From positions 175,656 through 213,773 of the forward strand of contig NZ_GG669994.1 of the NCBI RefSeq assembly GCF_000159315.1: a stretch of DNA of 38,118 nt, written 5' to 3'. The stretch is from Lentilactobacillus hilgardii DSM 20176 = ATCC 8290 (GTDB lineage Bacteria; Bacillota; Bacilli; Lactobacillales; Lactobacillaceae). Positions 30,667 through 37,873 of this stretch are shown one piece after another (position 1 is the stretch's first letter; every line of letters starts with the position of its first letter). A program made the translations under genes and the position numbers. A model generated the notes under the pieces. That model was not told the origin of the DNA and did not search any database. It was given only the letters and a program-made list of their open reading frames with translations.

Positions 30667-32643
30667 CTACCAAATTTTTACGCGATCTTCCGGCTTGAGA
30701 TACATGCCGTCTCCCGATTTTACTTCGAATGTTGAGTAAAAGTCATCCAGGTTTTTAACTTGAACATTTGCCCGTAATTCGGCTGGAGCGTGAACATCGA
30801 TGTTTAGCAATAATTGTTTATACTGGGTTGTGGCCTTCATTCGCCATACCTTTGCCCAATTAATAAAGAAGTCATAAAGATTATAATCTTGTTCGTTCTT
30901 TGCAGCTTCGTTGGCACAACTGAGCCCACCTGCATCGGCAATGTTTTCCGAAACAGTTAATTTACCATTGACCTTACCTCCGGCAAAAGGAATGCCATCA
31001 AATTCCTTAATCATTTTATCGGCCAGTTTAGTGAAGTACTCATGATCTTCCTTGGTCCACCAGTTGTTCAGGTTTCCCATCTCATCGAATAAGGAGCCGT
31101 TATTGTCAAAGGCGTGTGAAATTTCGTGGGCCATAACGGCACCGATACCGCCATAGTTTTGACTTGAAGTCTGATCCAAGCTATAGAATGGTGCCTGCAG
31201 AATAGCCGCAGGAAAGACAATCAGGTTTTTGAATGGGTCATAGTAGGCGTTAACCGTGCTGGCACTCATTTCCCATTTGGTTCGGTCAACGGGTTGACCA
31301 AGTTTGGCGTAATTATCAGCCAAAGCAACCTGACCAATCCGGGTCATGTTATTGAACAGATTGCCTCCTTCATTTTCCGGTGTGATTTTATATTTATATT
31401 CGAGTTGGTCAATATGATCCGGATATCCAACATGAAGGCCAAGCTTGTCTAATTTAACAATGGCCTTCTTTCTGGTGTCTTCGCCCAACCAAGTATTATT
31501 TTGAAGGCGGTTTTTATAAACACTGATCATGTTGCGCACCATGTGTTCGACATCAGCTTTTGCTTTTGGTCCAAAATATTTCTTTGCGTAGTAGTCGCCT
31601 ATTGTTTGGCCAAAAGTACCGGTTGCCAGGTAGAAAGCCGACTTCTTTTGAGGCGTTGCTTCTTTTTTACCGGAAAGTGCCCGACTAAATGTGGATCCTG
31701 TTTGTCGAAATTCCTCTGAAAGGTAGCCTGTTGCAGAATAGATCGTGCCAACCAGCATCCAATTCTTCATGTCTTGAAAGCTGTCTTCATTAACAATCTC
31801 ATCGAGTGCTTCAAAATATTTAGGTTCAGTAACAATAATTTGCTCGGGTGTTTTTCCAAACAGCCCGTCTGCCAATTTGGTCAGATCAAAATGACTGCTT
31901 GATTTAGCAAACTCTGAGAACTTTTGCGGATTATACATCTTGCTATAGTCGGCAGATTCTTCCGCAGACTTAACATGGGGAGCAATAGCAGCATCAAACT
32001 TCTTAGCCGACTCGACGATCTCGTCCGCCTCATTACTACTATAATCGGCCAATACGAGTAATTGACTCAATGTTTTAGTCAAAACAGGCATGAGTTGATT
32101 GTAGGCAGGGTTATTGTTTTCGTAATAAGTTCTGTCCGGTAGAAATAGGCTGGGACTGTTTGCAAACAGCGCGTTGACCTGCGTGTTTTTCATGTCCGGT
32201 TCAACAAAAAAGCCAAACGGAAGTGGGAATCCGGTTTTAACCCAATCCGCAAGCTGACCATTTAAATCAGCAAAATTTGAAATGTTTTCGATTTTTTCCA
32301 AATAGGGTTTTAACGGATCAGCACCGTCTGCGTCCCGTTTTTTAAAGTTTTGGGCCAATTCGTATAGTTTTAACATTTCTGAGAAAGGTGCTTCAAAGCT
32401 GTCTTTATTTTTGGCCTTGAGATCATCCAAATCATGCATCAATTCTTTATCGATGTTATCGTTTAAATCCATAAAACCACCCGTCGAAGAATGGTCGGCA
32501 GGAATCTTGGCTGTCTTTTCCCATCTGCCGTTAACGGCCTGATAGAGGTCATCTTTTAATAATGACTTGTCGATAGAATCATTAGTAGGCTGATTAGCGT
32601 CTCCATCCTCAGCCTCGGTTGCTTTAACAATTAATTTTTTCAA
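30667..32643 (-). CDS. pepO: M13-family zinc endopeptidase PepO
   Basis: The 658-residue neprilysin-type metalloprotease has the zinc motif HEISH (about residues 506-510), a third ligand in SENIADAGG (Glu566) and the family segments VNAYYDPFKNLIVFPAAILQ and the C-terminal DRVKIW. There is no signal peptide, so it should act in the cytosol on casein-derived or other oligopeptides, as PepO does in lactic acid bacteria. The TTG at 32643 is chosen because AGGGAGG lies seven bases upstream of it; an ATG at 32670 would place that site inside the coding region. The AT-rich RT island begins just beyond its promoter side. Confidence 0.93.
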   Translation of the reverse strand: MKKLIVKATEAEDGDANQPTNDSIDKSLLKDDLYQAVNGRWEKTAKIPADHSSTGGFMDLNDNIDKELMHDLDDLKAKNKDSFEAPFSEMLKLYELAQNFKKRDADGADPLKPYLEKIENISNFADLNGQLADWVKTGFPLPFGFFVEPDMKNTQVNALFANSPSLFLPDRTYYENNNPAYNQLMPVLTKTLSQLLVLADYSSNEADEIVESAKKFDAAIAPHVKSAEESADYSKMYNPQKFSEFAKSSSHFDLTKLADGLFGKTPEQIIVTEPKYFEALDEIVNEDSFQDMKNWMLVGTIYSATGYLSEEFRQTGSTFSRALSGKKEATPQKKSAFYLATGTFGQTIGDYYAKKYFGPKAKADVEHMVRNMISVYKNRLQNNTWLGEDTRKKAIVKLDKLGLHVGYPDHIDQLEYKYKITPENEGGNLFNNMTRIGQVALADNYAKLGQPVDRTKWEMSASTVNAYYDPFKNLIVFPAAILQAPFYSLDQTSSQNYGGIGAVMAHEISHAFDNNGSLFDEMGNLNNWWTKEDHEYFTKLADKMIKEFDGIPFAGGKVNGKLTVSENIADAGGLSCANEAAKNEQDYNLYDFFINWAKVWRMKATTQYKQLLLNIDVHAPAELRANVQVKNLDDFYSTFEVKSGDGMYLKPEDRVKIW

Positions 32644-33054
32644 ACTGATTCCTCCCTGTCTAATGTTCATTGAAATAAGTATATGTCATTAGAATAGGTT
32701 TTCAAAGTGATTGATGTAGATTTGATATTAAAAAGAGATGTGTATTACTTTAGAAAAAAGGAAAGCACCATATTGTTAAAAAGATAGAAGGATTTGAAGA
32801 TAAAGAGCTGCAAAATGCAATTAAGTCTGTTTTTTAATGTGTGTAGATATGTTCTGAAAGATAGTCCAATTTGTAACGTATTTTTAGTATCAGTTGTGTT
32901 AATGCTGACATGGAATCTTACATTATTTAAACTATCCTTGGCATGCTATAGATTAAAAATCTAAGAGAAAATTATCTAGGTAATTATTTGCCATAATTAA
33001 TGATTATGGCAAATAAGATGTGGGAAAACCAATAGTTTTGTTATAATACTTGAT
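32644..33054 (-). other. Non-coding region 3' of the short RT: hairpin and ACACACA tract, candidate ncRNA
   Basis: No open frame of note is present. On the minus strand, just after the short RT stop, a perfect 14-bp inverted repeat with a five-base loop lies at 32984-33016 (arm TTATTTGCCATAAT). It lacks a T-tract. Further on, AAGGATAGT (32931-32939) can pair with ACTATCTTT (32857-32865), closing a domain of about 80 bases. Right after that stem the minus strand reads ACACACA (32838-32844). DRT3 systems need an ncRNA and, as I recall, its template is an AC repeat. This is the best match in the island's non-coding DNA, but a 7-base tract in AT-rich DNA can be chance. Confidence 0.3.
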
Positions 33055-34239
33055 CTATGTTTTATATAAATTGATAAATAAATACCTTATATAAGTCTCT
33101 CTTTTTTTTGATCCATAGTAGGTATAACCAATCGCTTTTACCATATCATCTAATTTTGAAATGCTTAATCGTAAATAATTATAATATTTAAACTTAGGCA
33201 CATCTAAATCACTCTCAACATAAGGAAGCAATAACGACCGTAGTAGAAATTTATCTCTTGAAATAAACTGGGAGTGCATAATCTCATAGTAAGTAGTTTT
33301 AATTAACTTATTTAAAGAGGACGTATTGTTCATTAACGAATATGAGTTTGGGATACCACTATATTGAATTTTTCCATTAGTTCCAACAGTAGTGATTCCC
33401 CAAAAAACGTTTCTCAGTTTAAAAAGGCAAGTATAAAGTTTGACCGTATAAGCTTTATCAGACTGCTTTATTTTAAAGAAAATATTTCTGATTCGCTGTT
33501 GTAATTTTTGAACTTTTGCTTTTTGTACCTGTATTTCTAAAGTATAAATTTTGGGATAGTTAGTATTTCTTAAACTAGTAAAGTGATATCCTAAAAAGTC
33601 GAAGCTTAAATTTTTAGCTTCATTTTTAGCTGCACTAAAAAAGGATATTTGAAATTTTGAGGAAGACAATTCTAAATTTAACGGATTTAGTAGATCATTG
33701 ATTTGATCATAAATTGCACTTAATTTGATTTTTTCCCTACTCGTTGGGAAAACCATTATAAAATCGTCAACATATCTAATATAAAGAAGCGGGGAAAAAG
33801 TTTGTTTGATTTGTATATCAAATTTTTTTAAATAAAGGGATGCTAATGCAGAAGAAACTGGTACTCCAAGAGGGAGCCCCTCAAAATTTGGATCCAAAAG
33901 AATATCTTTTAATAAAAAATAATCCTTTGATCCAAGCATTCCCTCACTGTTTATTTTTTTTAGTAATATTTGCTTTTTTATTGAAGGGAAAAAATCTTTT
34001 ATGTCTCCTCTAATAACCGCAACGGGAAGTTCGTTCATCATGGGAAAGTTATTAATATATAGGCCATTTGTTAGAGCCCTGATCACTCTTTCTACAGAAC
34101 TATTTCTTGAGGTATTCACTATCCCGTATTGGTTTGAAATTGTAGTTATTAAACTTTTGTATTTTTCTAAAGTATCTTTATCAAGTGATATAACTTTTCG
34201 TCCATTTACAATTTTTTTATCAAATTTATTATTATTCAT
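33055..34239 (-). CDS. Short reverse transcriptase, Drt3a (UG3)-like component of a DRT3-type defence system
   Basis: The 394-residue protein contains a full RT palm. Motif A is IRGDIKDFFPSI (Asp79), motif B is GLPLGVPVSSALASLYL (121-137), motif C is LLYIRYVDDFIMVF (YVDD 156-159) and the motif D/E region is LSFDFLGYHF (212-220). A basic helical thumb-like region of about 170 residues follows. There is no maturase, endonuclease or protease domain, so it is not a group II intron ORF. I start it at the ATG 34239 (MNNNKFDKK); the open frame extends 51 codons upstream through the promoter. AAAG is a weak ribosome site. The gene is visibly more AT-rich than pepO and ppk2. It stands back to back with a second RT; this pairing is what points to DRT3. 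Confidence 0.88.
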   Translation of the reverse strand: MNNNKFDKKIVNGRKVISLDKDTLEKYKSLITTISNQYGIVNTSRNSSVERVIRALTNGLYINNFPMMNELPVAVIRGDIKDFFPSIKKQILLKKINSEGMLGSKDYFLLKDILLDPNFEGLPLGVPVSSALASLYLKKFDIQIKQTFSPLLYIRYVDDFIMVFPTSREKIKLSAIYDQINDLLNPLNLELSSSKFQISFFSAAKNEAKNLSFDFLGYHFTSLRNTNYPKIYTLEIQVQKAKVQKLQQRIRNIFFKIKQSDKAYTVKLYTCLFKLRNVFWGITTVGTNGKIQYSGIPNSYSLMNNTSSLNKLIKTTYYEIMHSQFISRDKFLLRSLLLPYVESDLDVPKFKYYNYLRLSISKLDDMVKAIGYTYYGSKKRETYIRYLFINLYKT

Positions 34240-34506
34240 CTTTATTACCAACTTTAATATGTATAAGCATGCTAGGGTAGAATCAAAAAGCGATTCTTTC
34301 ATTAACACATCCAAGATGGAATAGTTAATAAATGTATAGCATAAGAATGTTATACTAGTTGTGTATATAATATGCGGTTTGGCCCAAATCAATGTATCTA
34401 TTCATTGATTCCAAATTAATACAGATGTTCATTATTGATTTGACATATCATAATAATTCCCATAGCACACTCAAATTTATTTTATCATTTAAAGAGGTAT
34501 TTTTCC
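34240..34506. promoter_or_regulatory. Divergent promoter region between the two RT genes, with structured leader
   Basis: For the short RT (minus) TTGATT (34386-34391) and TATATA (34364-34369) are 16 bases apart, giving a leader of about 118 bases. That leader can form hairpins at 34279-34297 (AGAATC / GATTCT), 34301-34329 (ATTAAC / GTTAAT) and 34334-34355 (GTATA / TATAC). For the long RT (plus) TTGACA lies at 34439-34444 with a poor -10. An 8-bp inverted repeat, AATCAATG-N8-CATTGATT (34386-34409), covers the minus -35, and a related ATTGATT occurs beside the plus -35. This suggests joint control. The leader is an alternative site for an ncRNA. Confidence 0.5.
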
Positions 34507-36546
34507 ATGTCAAACGATTACTTTTTAAGAACCGAAGTGTTACCTTATGAATTACCCGCTCTTTTTTCAAACAACTTTCTTTGTAAACTTCATGAACTAT
34601 CAGAATCAAAAATTAAGTCTGATTTTCATGTAACTCAAGGGAGGAAAAAGTTAAAAAATAAGGCTTTCTTTGGAGCATCTATTTTAAGGGGAGTTAACTA
34701 TACTAAACCGTTAGATTTTATTGGTACCAATGCAAACAAGAAGAGACGGACACTCAGTTTACTTCATCCATATGGTCAAATACTCACCATGTTATATACA
34801 TTGAGATTTCAGGATTACATTGTAGATACAGCCAAAAGATCTAGTTTTAGTATTCGATCACCTCGGAAAAGGAATTCTAATGAAATAAATTCGAATGATA
34901 CAAAAATTAAAAATTGGCAAAGAATTTATGAATCTATTAATTTATCGAGTACTAATCAAGTAACCTCAGAAGAGGATAAGGTTTTATTTAATCACTTTTT
35001 CTCTTATTTTAGAACTGATAATTATTCTTCAATGGCAAGTTCAACTTTCGTAAAACAAATTCAAAACCAATTTCAATATGTACTAAAAACGGATGTTCAA
35101 AATTTTTTTCCTAGTATCTATACTCATTCTTTAGCGTGGGCTTTATATGGTAGTAAGAGTGTCGGTAAAGAACAAAAGGGGGATAAAAACTCGTTTCCAA
35201 ATCTGACCGACTATGTTCTCCACAATATAAATTTTGATGAAACTAACGGGATAATTGTTGGCCTTGAGTTTTCTAGGATAATTGCTGAATTATTAATGTC
35301 GGTTGTTGATAACAAAGTTGAAGTAAAGATTTACAAAAAGTATCGTTATCGATTTCGTGTTAATTATTTTATTATTCGGTTTGTGGATGACATTTTTATA
35401 TTCAGTAATTCGCTAGAAGCAAATAGGAATATCTTTTTAATAATGAAAGACGTTCTTGATGAATTTAATTTGAAGGTAAACGATAAAAAACTATCTATTT
35501 TTGAAGATTCTGCTACAGTTTTTACTAGTTGTATTGACGAAATCAAACAACTATTTGAATTATTTAAGGTACAAAAAAGGGAACTCACTTTATTTAGCGT
35601 TTTAAAAGGTAAAGACGCTTTGGATTCTGATCCAAATACTGGTAAACGAGGTAGATTGATAGATTGGAAAAACTTATTTAATGGCATTCACCAGATCGCA
35701 TCAAAGAATTCGCAAGATTTAGGAAAAATCACTCATTACTCATTAAGCTCTATAAATAGCATCTTAAATTTCGTACCCGATTTATCAATAAAGGAACGGA
35801 AGGTATACGTAGTAATAATTGAGGGTTTATCTGGATTGTTGAAGAATAGCTGTACATATACTGCTATTCAGCATTATATTCTTAATATTTCAAAATTAAT
35901 TCATAATCTTGAAAGTAGTAAAAATAGTTTGGAAATGCAATCTGAACTAATGAAATCACAACAGATTTCATATGATTTAGATATGGAATTAATTTTTAAG
36001 TCACAATGTAGAATTTTAGATAACAATTGGTTTAGCGTAGACGAAGGATATGAATTAATTAACTTTATGAAGTACTATCAAAAATTATCTTGGATGATAC
36101 CTTCAAGAATCTTAATTAACCTTTTACATCTAGATGATTCTCATAATTTCTATTTTATCAATGCTAGCATAGCCTATTATATTTTGGATAATAAAACTAA
36201 TGAAGTTCAACGTGCTTATAGAACTGTCTATAAGGTCTTATTTAGAAGAATAAGGCTTTATATCCAAAAAAACATTGATAATGGAATTGATCCATTACTT
36301 GATGGTAATTTCTTCTACGTTTTAAATGATTTTCTCAAATACCCCGGAATATTAAAAACAGATAAGGAATGGTTAAGCAAAGTTTATAACAATTTAAAGG
36401 GTAAATCTAAAAGTAGTGATCTAGATAAAATTACCTCTGATTCTTATTTTCAGTGGAATGGGTCTTTTGATACATTTTTAAAAAATGTAATCAAGAAAAA
36501 GGTTGTTCACCAATTAAATATTACTGATCTTAACGTTAGCTTTTAA
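34507..36546 (+). CDS. Long reverse transcriptase, Drt3b (UG8)-like component of a DRT3-type defence system
   Basis: The 679-residue protein follows AAAGAGG. An N-terminal block (RTLSLLHPYGQILTMLYTLRFQDYIVD, about 81-107) precedes the RT core. Motif A is LKTDVQNFFPSI (Asp196), and motif B is of the Abi/UG type, GIIVGLEFSRIIAELL (248-263), lacking the usual QG. Motif C is IIRFVDDIFIF (FVDD 292-295), and LKVNDKKLSIF is motif D. Residues about 345-679 are Leu/Ile-rich and helical without a recognisable enzyme domain, as in Abi/UG RTs with alpha-helical repeat tails. The length and motif style match the larger RT of DRT3; the partner is the divergent 394-residue RT. Base use is AT-rich, like the partner and unlike the flanks, suggesting transfer of the whole island. 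Confidence 0.88.
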   Translation: MSNDYFLRTEVLPYELPALFSNNFLCKLHELSESKIKSDFHVTQGRKKLKNKAFFGASILRGVNYTKPLDFIGTNANKKRRTLSLLHPYGQILTMLYTLRFQDYIVDTAKRSSFSIRSPRKRNSNEINSNDTKIKNWQRIYESINLSSTNQVTSEEDKVLFNHFFSYFRTDNYSSMASSTFVKQIQNQFQYVLKTDVQNFFPSIYTHSLAWALYGSKSVGKEQKGDKNSFPNLTDYVLHNINFDETNGIIVGLEFSRIIAELLMSVVDNKVEVKIYKKYRYRFRVNYFIIRFVDDIFIFSNSLEANRNIFLIMKDVLDEFNLKVNDKKLSIFEDSATVFTSCIDEIKQLFELFKVQKRELTLFSVLKGKDALDSDPNTGKRGRLIDWKNLFNGIHQIASKNSQDLGKITHYSLSSINSILNFVPDLSIKERKVYVVIIEGLSGLLKNSCTYTAIQHYILNISKLIHNLESSKNSLEMQSELMKSQQISYDLDMELIFKSQCRILDNNWFSVDEGYELINFMKYYQKLSWMIPSRILINLLHLDDSHNFYFINASIAYYILDNKTNEVQRAYRTVYKVLFRRIRLYIQKNIDNGIDPLLDGNFFYVLNDFLKYPGILKTDKEWLSKVYNNLKGKSKSSDLDKITSDSYFQWNGSFDTFLKNVIKKKVVHQLNITDLNVSF

Positions 36547-36752
36547 ATGCGTTGGATGTGTTTTGCTAACATCGACATAAAACGGTCTTTGCCCGCAAGT
36601 TGGTATTAGATTCTTAAAACGTTTTTAATAAAAGTAAAATACGGCCAAACATCACTGGATATATATCTTTTTTGCAATTTAATTAATAAATTAAAAGTCA
36701 ATCCTAATATAACAAGATTTTCCAAGTCGTTTCAGTTTCTGAACCTCCATGA
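36547..36752. other. AT-rich intergenic DNA after the long RT
   Basis: No open frame, clear terminator or ncRNA-like structure stands out apart from a short TTAAAACGTTTTTAA palindrome near 36615. This is probably the right-hand edge of the RT island. Confidence 0.4.
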
Positions 36753-36875
36753 TGGTTCTTTAAAAATTTGTGGTGTTATGTTGTCGCGTTTGTTTGCGGT
36801 GCGTACACATTTGTTTGGTTAGCATTCTTATTGGTTGATGCAATTTTATATTTGATTAAAAAGTTACATATCTAA
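36753..36875 (+). pseudogene. Possible remnant of a small membrane protein gene
   Basis: The frame reads WFFKNLWCYVVAFVCGAYTF, then VWLAFLLVDAILYLIKKLHI and a TAA. That is a convincing one- or two-helix membrane protein with a basic end. No start codon with a ribosome site precedes it. An ATG at 36749 is one base out of frame, as if an indel had separated it, and a TTG at 36768 is the only in-frame alternative. It resembles in type the microprotein at 30234-30404. Confidence 0.4.
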
Positions 36876-36943
36876 GTGTTGTTTATCCATACATTTAATT
36901 GTTGTGCTATCTTTAAATCGATAGTAAGAGGAGGGATTAGGTT

Positions 36944-37873
36944 TTGGACAATAAGAAAATGTTTGATCGTGAAAAATCGTTTCGCTACAACGGTGGCAGT
37001 AATTTTAAATTAAGCAAGAAGCCAACCGCTGCAATCGACGAAAATTTGAGTAAAACGGATATTAAGGCTCGAATTGACAGCAATATCCTGACGTTGCAGG
37101 ATCTGCAGGGGAAACTTTACGCGCAAAACCGGTTTGGTATTTTAATTATTTTTCAAGGAATGGATGGTTCTGGTAAGGATAGCATGATTCGCCATATTTT
37201 AAGCGGGGTTAATCCGCAGGGATGTGAAGTCACCAGTTTTAAGGTGCCGACTTCGATTGAGTTGAACCATGACTATCTGTGGCGGGTTCATCGTCATATG
37301 CCGTCACGTGGCATTATTGGTATCTTTAACCGTTCTTATTATGAAGATGTTTTGGTTAGCAAAGTTCACCCACAATTGATTTTGAACGCTCATATTGGCG
37401 GTGTGACAAAATTAAAGCAGGTTGATGATGATTTCTTTGAGGGTCGATACCAGGATATTAATTTCTTGGAAGACTATATGACTCGCAATGGCTTCATGGT
37501 CTTAAAATTCTTCCTTCATATGTCAAAAGACGAACAAAAAAATCGTTTTAGAAGACGCATTGAGATGCCGGATCACAACTGGAAATTCTCAGCTGCCGAC
37601 ATTAAGGAACGCCAATATTGGGATGACTATGTAGACGCGTACGAAACCGCTTTGAAGAAGACGGCTACAAAGCAGAATCCATGGTATGTGATTCCGTCTG
37701 ATGATAAATGGTATTCGCGTTTATGTGTTTCGGACATTATTGATCACAGAATGAAAGAATTACCACTTAAGTACCCGGATTTGGATGCGGCAAGTAAGGA
37801 ACAGTTGGAAAGCGCGTTGGATGAGTTGGAAAAGAATTATCCCGGGTTGGCGGAGCACGTTTCGGCTCGGTGA
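36944..37873 (+). CDS. PPK2-family polyphosphate kinase/phosphotransferase
   Basis: The 309-residue enzyme has the P-loop GMDGSGKDS (residues 72-80), lid and core motifs HRHMPSRGIIGIFNRSYYEDVL, and the FLHMSKDEQKNRFRRRI and HNWKFSAADIKERQYWDDY segments typical of PPK2. It moves phosphate between polyphosphate and nucleotides; the class (ADP- or AMP-using) cannot be told from this reading alone. The start is a TTG behind GAGGAGGG. It forms the right flank of the RT island. Confidence 0.93.
   Translation: MDNKKMFDREKSFRYNGGSNFKLSKKPTAAIDENLSKTDIKARIDSNILTLQDLQGKLYAQNRFGILIIFQGMDGSGKDSMIRHILSGVNPQGCEVTSFKVPTSIELNHDYLWRVHRHMPSRGIIGIFNRSYYEDVLVSKVHPQLILNAHIGGVTKLKQVDDDFFEGRYQDINFLEDYMTRNGFMVLKFFLHMSKDEQKNRFRRRIEMPDHNWKFSAADIKERQYWDDYVDAYETALKKTATKQNPWYVIPSDDKWYSRLCVSDIIDHRMKELPLKYPDLDAASKEQLESALDELEKNYPGLAEHVSAR

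Follow-up and report, generated by a model that had tools for sequence, protein, structure and literature searches.

The defence-associated reverse transcriptase system DRT3 of Escherichia coli is made of two reverse transcriptases (RTs), Drt3a (UG3) and Drt3b (UG8), and a non-coding RNA (ncRNA) that lies downstream of drt3b and carries a loop, ACACAC, which templates poly(dTdG) (PMC13174585; PDB 26cz, also 9z6y). As described in the consulted sections of that paper, poly(dTdG) is RNA-templated and poly(dCdA) protein-templated, and the duplex of the two is held down by RecBCD and released when phage Gam blocks RecBCD; the same sections report that the primer of the Drt3a strand was not found. 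DRT3 is the best-documented case of protein-templated DNA synthesis in the literature consulted, and a preprint on DRT7 is mentioned in the consulted part of PMC13213688. According to a passage of PMC8934634, a UG8 RT is the neighbour of about 97% of UG3 RTs.

Here we analyse such a pair in Lentilactobacillus hilgardii DSM 20176 = ATCC 8290, in a stretch of 38,118 nucleotides of contig NZ_GG669994.1 (the window, to which all positions refer unless a locus is named), where two RT genes lie head to head between pepO and ppk2. With a probability of roughly 80%, we read them as a horizontally acquired anti-phage module of a head-to-head DRT3 subtype, working by the scheme given below. A preliminary description of this DNA had mentioned GT and AC repeat chemistry for such pairs, which is what the consulted sections of PMC13174585 report for E. 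coli; it had missed the RNA predicted in the gap between the genes, the difference in the place of this RNA from that in tandem DRT3, and the fact that Drt3b has lost its priming tyrosine.

The RT pair, its insertion site and its relatives

The main features of the locus are the following.
33055-34239, minus strand: drt3a-like RT gene (UG3 type), 394 amino acids, YVDD, ATG start (open reading frame, PADLOC, NCBIfam)
34507-36546, plus strand: drt3b-like gene for a UG8-type RT of 679 amino acids, the RT domain being followed by a helical C-terminal one (open reading frame, PADLOC, NCBIfam, PDB alignment)
35380-35391, plus strand: FVDD motif C of drt3b
32671-36943, no strand: AT-rich stretch between pepO and ppk2 carrying the module (GC content, empty site in most relatives)

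The open reading frames (ORFs) confirm the back-to-back YVDD and FVDD pair of the preliminary description: both are uninterrupted, with motif C intact in each, and they are separated by 267 bases. Drt3a carries RGDIKDFFPSI as motif A and GLPLGVPVSSALASLYL as motif B, and Drt3b has the motif GLEFSRIIAE and a helical C-terminal half. A longer form of drt3a starting at TTG (33055-34392) would cross the RNA region described below; we prefer the ATG because the N-termini of relatives, with starts chosen by us, begin close to it.

The PADLOC models rank the minus-strand RT as Drt3a (E=1.1e-54; the next kind, RT_UG17, gives 7e-26) and the plus-strand RT as Drt3b (E=2.2e-101, residues 4-667), values that set aside a chance resemblance. 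The best NCBIfam matches are also Drt3a and Drt3b, both below the equivalog cut-offs, and the top PDB sequence matches of the two proteins are the solved DRT3 RTs (for Drt3b, chains 9z6y and 26cz). The DRT3-like composition proposed earlier, a UG3-type RT with a UG8-type RT that has a helical repeat domain, is what these rankings give. DRT10, which joins a UG17 RT to a SLATT partner, does not describe the locus: the Drt3a match is far above that to RT_UG17, and between pepO and ppk2 there is no long ORF besides the two RTs and those on their opposite strands.

The pair is flanked by pepO (an M13 peptidase gene) and ppk2, and its GC content is 28-29% (0.283 and 0.288 for the two RT genes) against 41-42% in these neighbours (0.415-0.419). 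A ppk2 match was found in 16 of 24 Lentilactobacillus genomes, the window's own included. In 11 of the other 15 the site is empty, pepO starting less than 300 bases upstream of ppk2, a spacing that excludes the RTs there; in the remaining four (G336, G355, G316 and G372) pepO is absent from the 1.5 kb examined upstream of ppk2, the G316 contig ending nearby and the G372 ppk2 match being only 51% identical. The empty site and the GC contrast mark the module as an AT-rich insertion, horizontally acquired, as had been proposed, and the pair is not conserved at this site in all relatives. Among 397 genomes of the family, a match of any kind was present in 18 and a full-length Drt3b in four, of which two belong to the genus. 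The RT pair of G051, a genome of the same genus, has different neighbours, and this genome has no ppk2 match; the G051 locus L003 coincides with the contig stretch of L020 (Lentilactobacillus senioris DSM 24302). At L155 and L156, where PPK2 is 89% and 86% identical, genes other than pepO lie upstream of ppk2 within the stretch read, and the pepO-ppk2 site is rearranged.

We searched 395 genomes of the order, 398 of the class and 249 of the phylum, six smaller sets (13, 105, 76, 29, 89 and 16), genome contigs and plasmids, and obtained 13 distinct divergent (head-to-head) RT pairs, all in Bacilli: the window, Fructobacillus L090, uncultured Lactobacillus L021, L. senioris L091, L092, the Lactiplantibacillus/Pediococcus plasmids L023, and L093, L094, L095, L154, L097, L099 and L100. 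Near-copies (L096 of L095; L024 and L113 of L023) were left out of the RNA and tree counts; L101 (no Drt3a found), L102 (a lone Drt3b-like ORF of 321 amino acids), L112 (drt3b annotated as two ORFs) and L111 (no annotation) were dropped before counting. Drt3b of the divergent relatives is 23-37% identical to that of the window. Nine further loci (L098 and L103-L110) are tandem; in L110 the first RT is unnamed, and a Drt3a profile from which it was left out matches it at 4e-38. In viral contigs, a scan with the A3 query returned 40 loci, 19 with a strong Drt3b and 21 too weak for Drt3b, and scans with the A1, L093 and L099 queries returned no match; the 18 viral-contig loci in which both RTs could be seen, near-copies among them, are all tandem.

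In trees of the two proteins, of which that of Drt3b was rooted on the tandem rows, a supported branch separates the 11 Lactobacillales divergent rows from all others (100/99 for Drt3b, 91/99 for Drt3a); the rows of L154 Drt3a (346 of 372 amino acids, with our coordinates) and L021 Drt3b are incomplete. The same 11 rows and the same main groups recur in both trees, so that the two RTs have moved as a pair. Fructobacillus L090 and L021 are the group to which the window belongs (97/97 for Drt3b, 92/88 for Drt3a); L099 and L100 pair separately. Bootstrap trees unite all 13 divergent loci in 41% and 46% of cases. With two distant outgroups added, the 11 rows split 5 + 6 and met the rest at an unresolved fork, where long branches meet, and the 11 rows are therefore not established as a clade. 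Judging from the sequences, the head-to-head layout is a trait of the lineage, in line with the distinct subtype suggested in the preliminary description.

Some observations stand apart. In L110, of Erysipelothrix phage SE-1, the two proteins of a tandem pair resembling Drt3a and Drt3b carry the annotations hypothetical and DNA-binding protein, and ACACAC lies downstream on the opposite strand. The partnerless ORF of L102 (4240-5205), the L101 locus and L173, a Drt3b piece of 360 amino acids in a viral contig, are possibly decayed or orphan systems. In the window, just downstream of drt3a, an inverted repeat at 32984-33016 (14-base arms, 5-base loop, no T run by eye) may be terminator-like or a mark of insertion.

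The RNA predicted in the shared gap

On the minus strand, the gap is predicted to encode a structured RNA with these parts.
34264-34473, minus strand: predicted template ncRNA, a co-oriented 5' leader of drt3a that ends 24 nucleotides before its ATG (fold statistics, shared architecture)
34459-34473, minus strand: P1 closing helix, 5' arm (14 pairs, one bulge; predicted fold)
34264-34277, minus strand: P1 closing helix, 3' arm (predicted fold)
34366-34452, minus strand: 5' stem domain, ending 1 nucleotide before the template, at the position of a template-boundary element (predicted fold, strict-geometry control)
34360-34364, minus strand: putative Drt3a template 5'-ACACA-3', in the junction loop and single-stranded with a mean probability of 0.96 (predicted fold)
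34337-34357, minus strand: hairpin 1, 3' of the template (predicted fold)
34298-34332, minus strand: hairpin 2, 3' of the template (predicted fold)
34279-34297, minus strand: hairpin 3, 3' of the template (predicted fold)
34484-34513, minus strand: promoter-like TTGACA-18-AATGAT for the ncRNA/drt3a transcript, 10/12 matches; its -35 overlaps the start codon of drt3b

Cut to its closing helix (34263-34475, minus strand), the RNA has a minimum free energy (MFE) of -60 kcal/mol and a z-score of -5.66, and none of 200 shuffles was equally stable; its antisense has a z of -3.82. The full gap folds with a z of -6.48 on the drt3a strand. The promoter-like site is weak when taken alone, because such sites are common in shuffles (five in the region against 3.0, standard deviation 1.9).

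The core of this RNA recurs at every divergent locus. ACACA is present on the drt3a strand in 13/13 gaps against 2.83 expected (shuffle chances of 0.02-0.49 per gap), in L094 only once the start of drt3a is moved downstream by homology; ACACAC occurs there in eight of the 13 against 0.40 expected, and the opposite strand holds ACACA in three. The 13 gaps fold on the drt3a strand with z from -1.9 to -9.6, below the other strand in 11. In 12 of the 13 MFE structures ACACA is unpaired in a junction of at least three branches closed by a helix of at least seven pairs, where 0.69 would be expected from a control in which the sequence on both sides of ACACA was shuffled. We also applied a strict rule, in which a stem ends 0-1 nucleotides before ACACA, the next begins 7-11 nucleotides after the start of ACACA, at least two hairpins follow and the closing helix has at least eight pairs. 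It is satisfied by 11/13 gaps, the 11 Lactobacillales rows, against 0.03 expected; these sequences are also the ones from which the rule was derived, and the 11 rows are non-independent, amounting to about seven groups.

The RNA can be aligned within L093, L094, L095 and L154 (mean column identity 80%) and within L090 and L021 (87%). In the first group 12 of 51 pairs are changed on both sides and still paired, which none of 500 shuffles reached, and sliding the partners abolishes the signal. An Rfam search of the window gap (E up to 1) gave no match, and at gathering thresholds L023, L091, L093 and L090 gave four matches, none of them inside the gap. As a separate observation, rli28 small RNA matches lie near the divergent pairs of L023 (7044-7385) and L090 (9188-9376), one of them beside the antitoxin RNA RatA.

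Base gates, C-termini and a scheme for the locus

The residues compared with E. coli Drt3b or with relatives have the following codons.
34549-34551, plus strand: E15 of Drt3b, corresponding to E. coli E22 (dA gate; 26cz alignment), invariant in 11/11 divergent rows
34747-34749, plus strand: R81 of Drt3b, corresponding to E. coli R71 (26cz alignment), invariant in 11/11 divergent rows
35275-35277, plus strand: R257 of Drt3b, corresponding to E. coli R241 (dC gate, in GLEFSR; 26cz alignment), invariant in 11/11 divergent rows
36538-36540, plus strand: S678 of Drt3b, penultimate, at the place of the priming tyrosine, E. coli Y666 (C-terminus comparison)
33064-33066, minus strand: C-terminal Tyr392 of Drt3a

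E. coli numbering follows a 108-residue offset worked out from the 26cz chain; this chain has 775 residues, which less 108 leaves 667, so that the primer Y666 is next to last. A tyrosine lies within the last four residues in 17/20 intact Drt3b (L021 and L098, which meet contig ends, were excluded, and the Tyr-less L173 piece was not taken as intact). In viral contigs the tyrosine is in the last two positions in 18/19, the exception being this same piece. The three intact Tyr-less proteins end in NVSF (the window), LASV (Fructobacillus L090) and RASG (L099, whose sister L100 ends in YAYE). All three have a penultimate serine, a pattern noticed post hoc in three sequences that probably represent two events, in tails where serine makes up about 10-12%. 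Near the end of the window drt3b, the -1 frame reads I-K-Y-Y-stop (36513-36527, plus strand), like the Tyr-ended tails of relatives, which could be due to chance, a past indel or frameshifting.

By analogy, the E. coli scheme most likely applies to this locus, and its biochemical and immune steps would run as follows. A promoter at the 5' edge of drt3b would drive a transcript toward drt3a, starting just before the closing helix, and the first ~210 nucleotides of this transcript would fold into the template RNA. Drt3a would bind this RNA and recopy the 5'-ACACA-3' junction loop into poly(dTdG), the stem directly 5' of the template acting as a boundary, a role proposed in DRT10 for the stem that precedes the template loop. 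With no nucleic-acid template, Drt3b would build poly(dCdA) by selecting the two bases in turn through E15 and R257, and would start the strand on its own C-terminal residue, for which Ser678 is the probable candidate here in place of tyrosine. The two strands would anneal into a repeat duplex, normally cleared by a host exonuclease acting on double-stranded DNA ends, which in Lactobacillales we take to be RexAB/AddAB. A phage that blocks this exonuclease would let the duplex accumulate, and cell growth would stop.

Several results speak against this scheme. The NCBIfam scores are sub-cut-off (134.9 bits against 200 for Drt3a; 247.6 against 350 for Drt3b), and AlphaFold, given alignments of four rows, produced weak models (mean pLDDT 57.9 and 63.7) that could not place the C-terminal tail. 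The window template has five nucleotides, ACACA, and not ACACAC. In an unanchored 210-nucleotide scan the drt3a strand of the gap reaches a z of -2.04 at best and the opposite strand -3.66, and stretches outside reach -3.66 and -3.47; the gap is unremarkable in such a scan, and its stability signal thus depends on correct ends. Among the relatives, the antisense of L093 and L095 folds as well as the sense, the ensemble unpaired probability of ACACA is low in L095 (0.56) and L100 (0.24), and L099 and L100 fail the strict fold. A covariance model built on L093, L094, L095 and L154 recovers its own four and the near-copy L096 at full length and no other lineage, the window included, so that it is by place, core and architecture, and not by a sequence score, that the window RNA is taken as homologous. 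Finally, Drt3b of the window lacks the C-terminal priming tyrosine.

This last point opens the strongest alternative, a decaying DRT3 in which loss of the tyrosine leaves Drt3b unable to prime and the module inactive, or with only Drt3a working. The count of C-termini favours it, and so does the -1 frame, whose tyrosines may have been shifted out of frame by a small indel. We nevertheless consider decay unlikely, since both frames are open, and the catalytic residues and the gate residues of Drt3b are kept. Moreover, Fructobacillus L090, the nearest relative with an intact C-terminus, is also Tyr-less and has no Tyr-ended tail in other frames, which suggests that the loss was probably inherited with an intact gene; L099, distant in the tree, is likewise Tyr-less. 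As the priming tyrosine is a residue of the mechanism and not a trait by which the family is named, we keep the window locus within DRT3 as a variant.

Returning to the scheme, priming on serine is plausible: the C-terminal primer is exchanged between serine and tyrosine in DRT10 (Eco3 S456, Eco1 Y444; PMC12632851, in the part consulted), and DRT1 primes on S402 according to a passage of PMC13275509. We tentatively propose, at somewhat less than even odds, that the window Drt3b starts protein-templated poly(dCdA) on S678, which would make it a serine-primed Class 1 RT within a DRT3 subtype that has its template RNA in the divergent leader shared by the genes, with another construction around the ACACA core. 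No description of a serine-primed Class 1 RT was found in the literature consulted on these RTs. Drt3a also has a C-terminal tyrosine, within the last six residues in 9/11 Lactobacillales divergent proteins, Y392 of the window included, and this residue is a weak candidate for the primer of the other strand. It was dropped as a mark of the subtype, since 3/9 tandem proteins (L105, L106 and L110) and several tandem ones from viral contigs have it too.

Position of the predicted RNA, remaining alternatives and known systems

The gap RNA could instead be a regulatory leader, or the gap just a pair of promoters, with the true template elsewhere, for instance downstream of drt3b. This is where the E. 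coli RNA lies (PMC13174585, in the consulted sections), and in the window a plus-strand ACACA is found at 36805, 259 nucleotides downstream of drt3b. Among tandem loci, ACACA occurs within 300 nucleotides downstream of drt3b in seven of the eight annotated ones against 1.87 expected, and ACACAC in the same proportion against 0.46; in viral contigs the count for ACACA is 19/19, with no control. In divergent loci, by contrast, ACACA within this distance is at chance (2/12, window included and L021 left out for its contig end, against 2.85 expected), while gap ACACA and the strict fold mark 13 and 11 of the 13 loci. The 210-nucleotide windows downstream of drt3b have plus-strand z of only -0.32 to +0.59. 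A downstream template of the E. coli kind was therefore rejected for the window, and we regard a template outside the gap as improbable. The sequences indicate that the place of the predicted RNA shifts with the layout, to the gap in divergent DRT3 and downstream of drt3b in tandem DRT3.

Its shape differs as well. In a tandem Enterobacter locus (L103 4926-5151) the template follows five branches, with no hairpin between it and the closing helix, and in the Lactobacillales divergent form one or two branches precede it and two or three follow. Six other tandem regions, taken as 260-nucleotide pieces, gave no clear common RNA shape, and Rfam found no match over the Enterobacter region.

Improbable too, and a shade below the previous alternative, is the reading that a -1 frameshift at IKYY-stop supplies a minor Tyr-ended form of Drt3b. 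The YY end is close to the NYYE and NINY of relatives, but L090 and L099 have no such frame, no consensus slippery heptamer is seen by eye, and the 0-frame tail (...LNVSF) also aligns with relatives. An origin of the two genes as ordinary RTs from a group II intron, a retron or a diversity-generating element was rejected as next to impossible, since weak RT cross-matches, such as that to TIGR04416 (77 bits against a cut-off of 300), are all that favours it, Drt3a and Drt3b are best by wide margins, and the single Rfam match in 32600-37000 is far below its cut-off.

In the DRT3 literature consulted, which covered Deng et al. 2026 through passages of other papers and lay outside Mestre et al. 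2022, where such a description would most be expected, no head-to-head subtype was found, and the texts of PMC13174585 and PMC13314766 contain no word beginning 'divergent'. There is a blind spot in annotation too, related plasmid pairs being labelled only 'RNA-directed DNA polymerase'. A subtype that has diverged this far in Gram-positive bacteria suggests that the ACACA core, the boundary stem and the E/R gates are the essential parts of DRT3, and that gene order, RNA shape and primer residue are free to change. What can prime Drt3b becomes a single-residue question, and predictions follow on how proteins write DNA.

Among known systems, AbiK and Abi-P2, both Class 1 RTs, give sequence matches to the window Drt3b; Foldseek places the Class 1 RTs Abi-P2, DRT4 and DRT6 at E ~1e-6 but with TM-scores of about 0.2, from a weak model. 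AbiK, Abi-P2, DRT4 and DRT6 are single-RT systems with no Drt3a partner. With DRT10 (UG17; PMC12632851, in the part consulted) the locus shares, in its predicted RNA, the stem directly 5' of the template loop and the intergenic place upstream of the genes, and S678 can be likened to the serine that primes some of its members in place of tyrosine. DRT10 differs in having one RT with a SLATT protein, and its serine priming belongs to an RNA-templated RT, not a protein-templated Class 1 RT. The closest system remains DRT3 of E. coli, with which the window shares both RT types, intact catalytic motifs, the E22/R71/R241 gates and a predicted structured RNA bearing ACACA near the genes. It departs from E. 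coli DRT3, whose layout of tandem genes with the RNA downstream of drt3b is usual and not strictly defining, in having its genes head to head, a predicted RNA that precedes drt3a in the gap between the genes and has hairpins on both sides of the template, ACACA in place of ACACAC, and a Drt3b without the C-terminal tyrosine.

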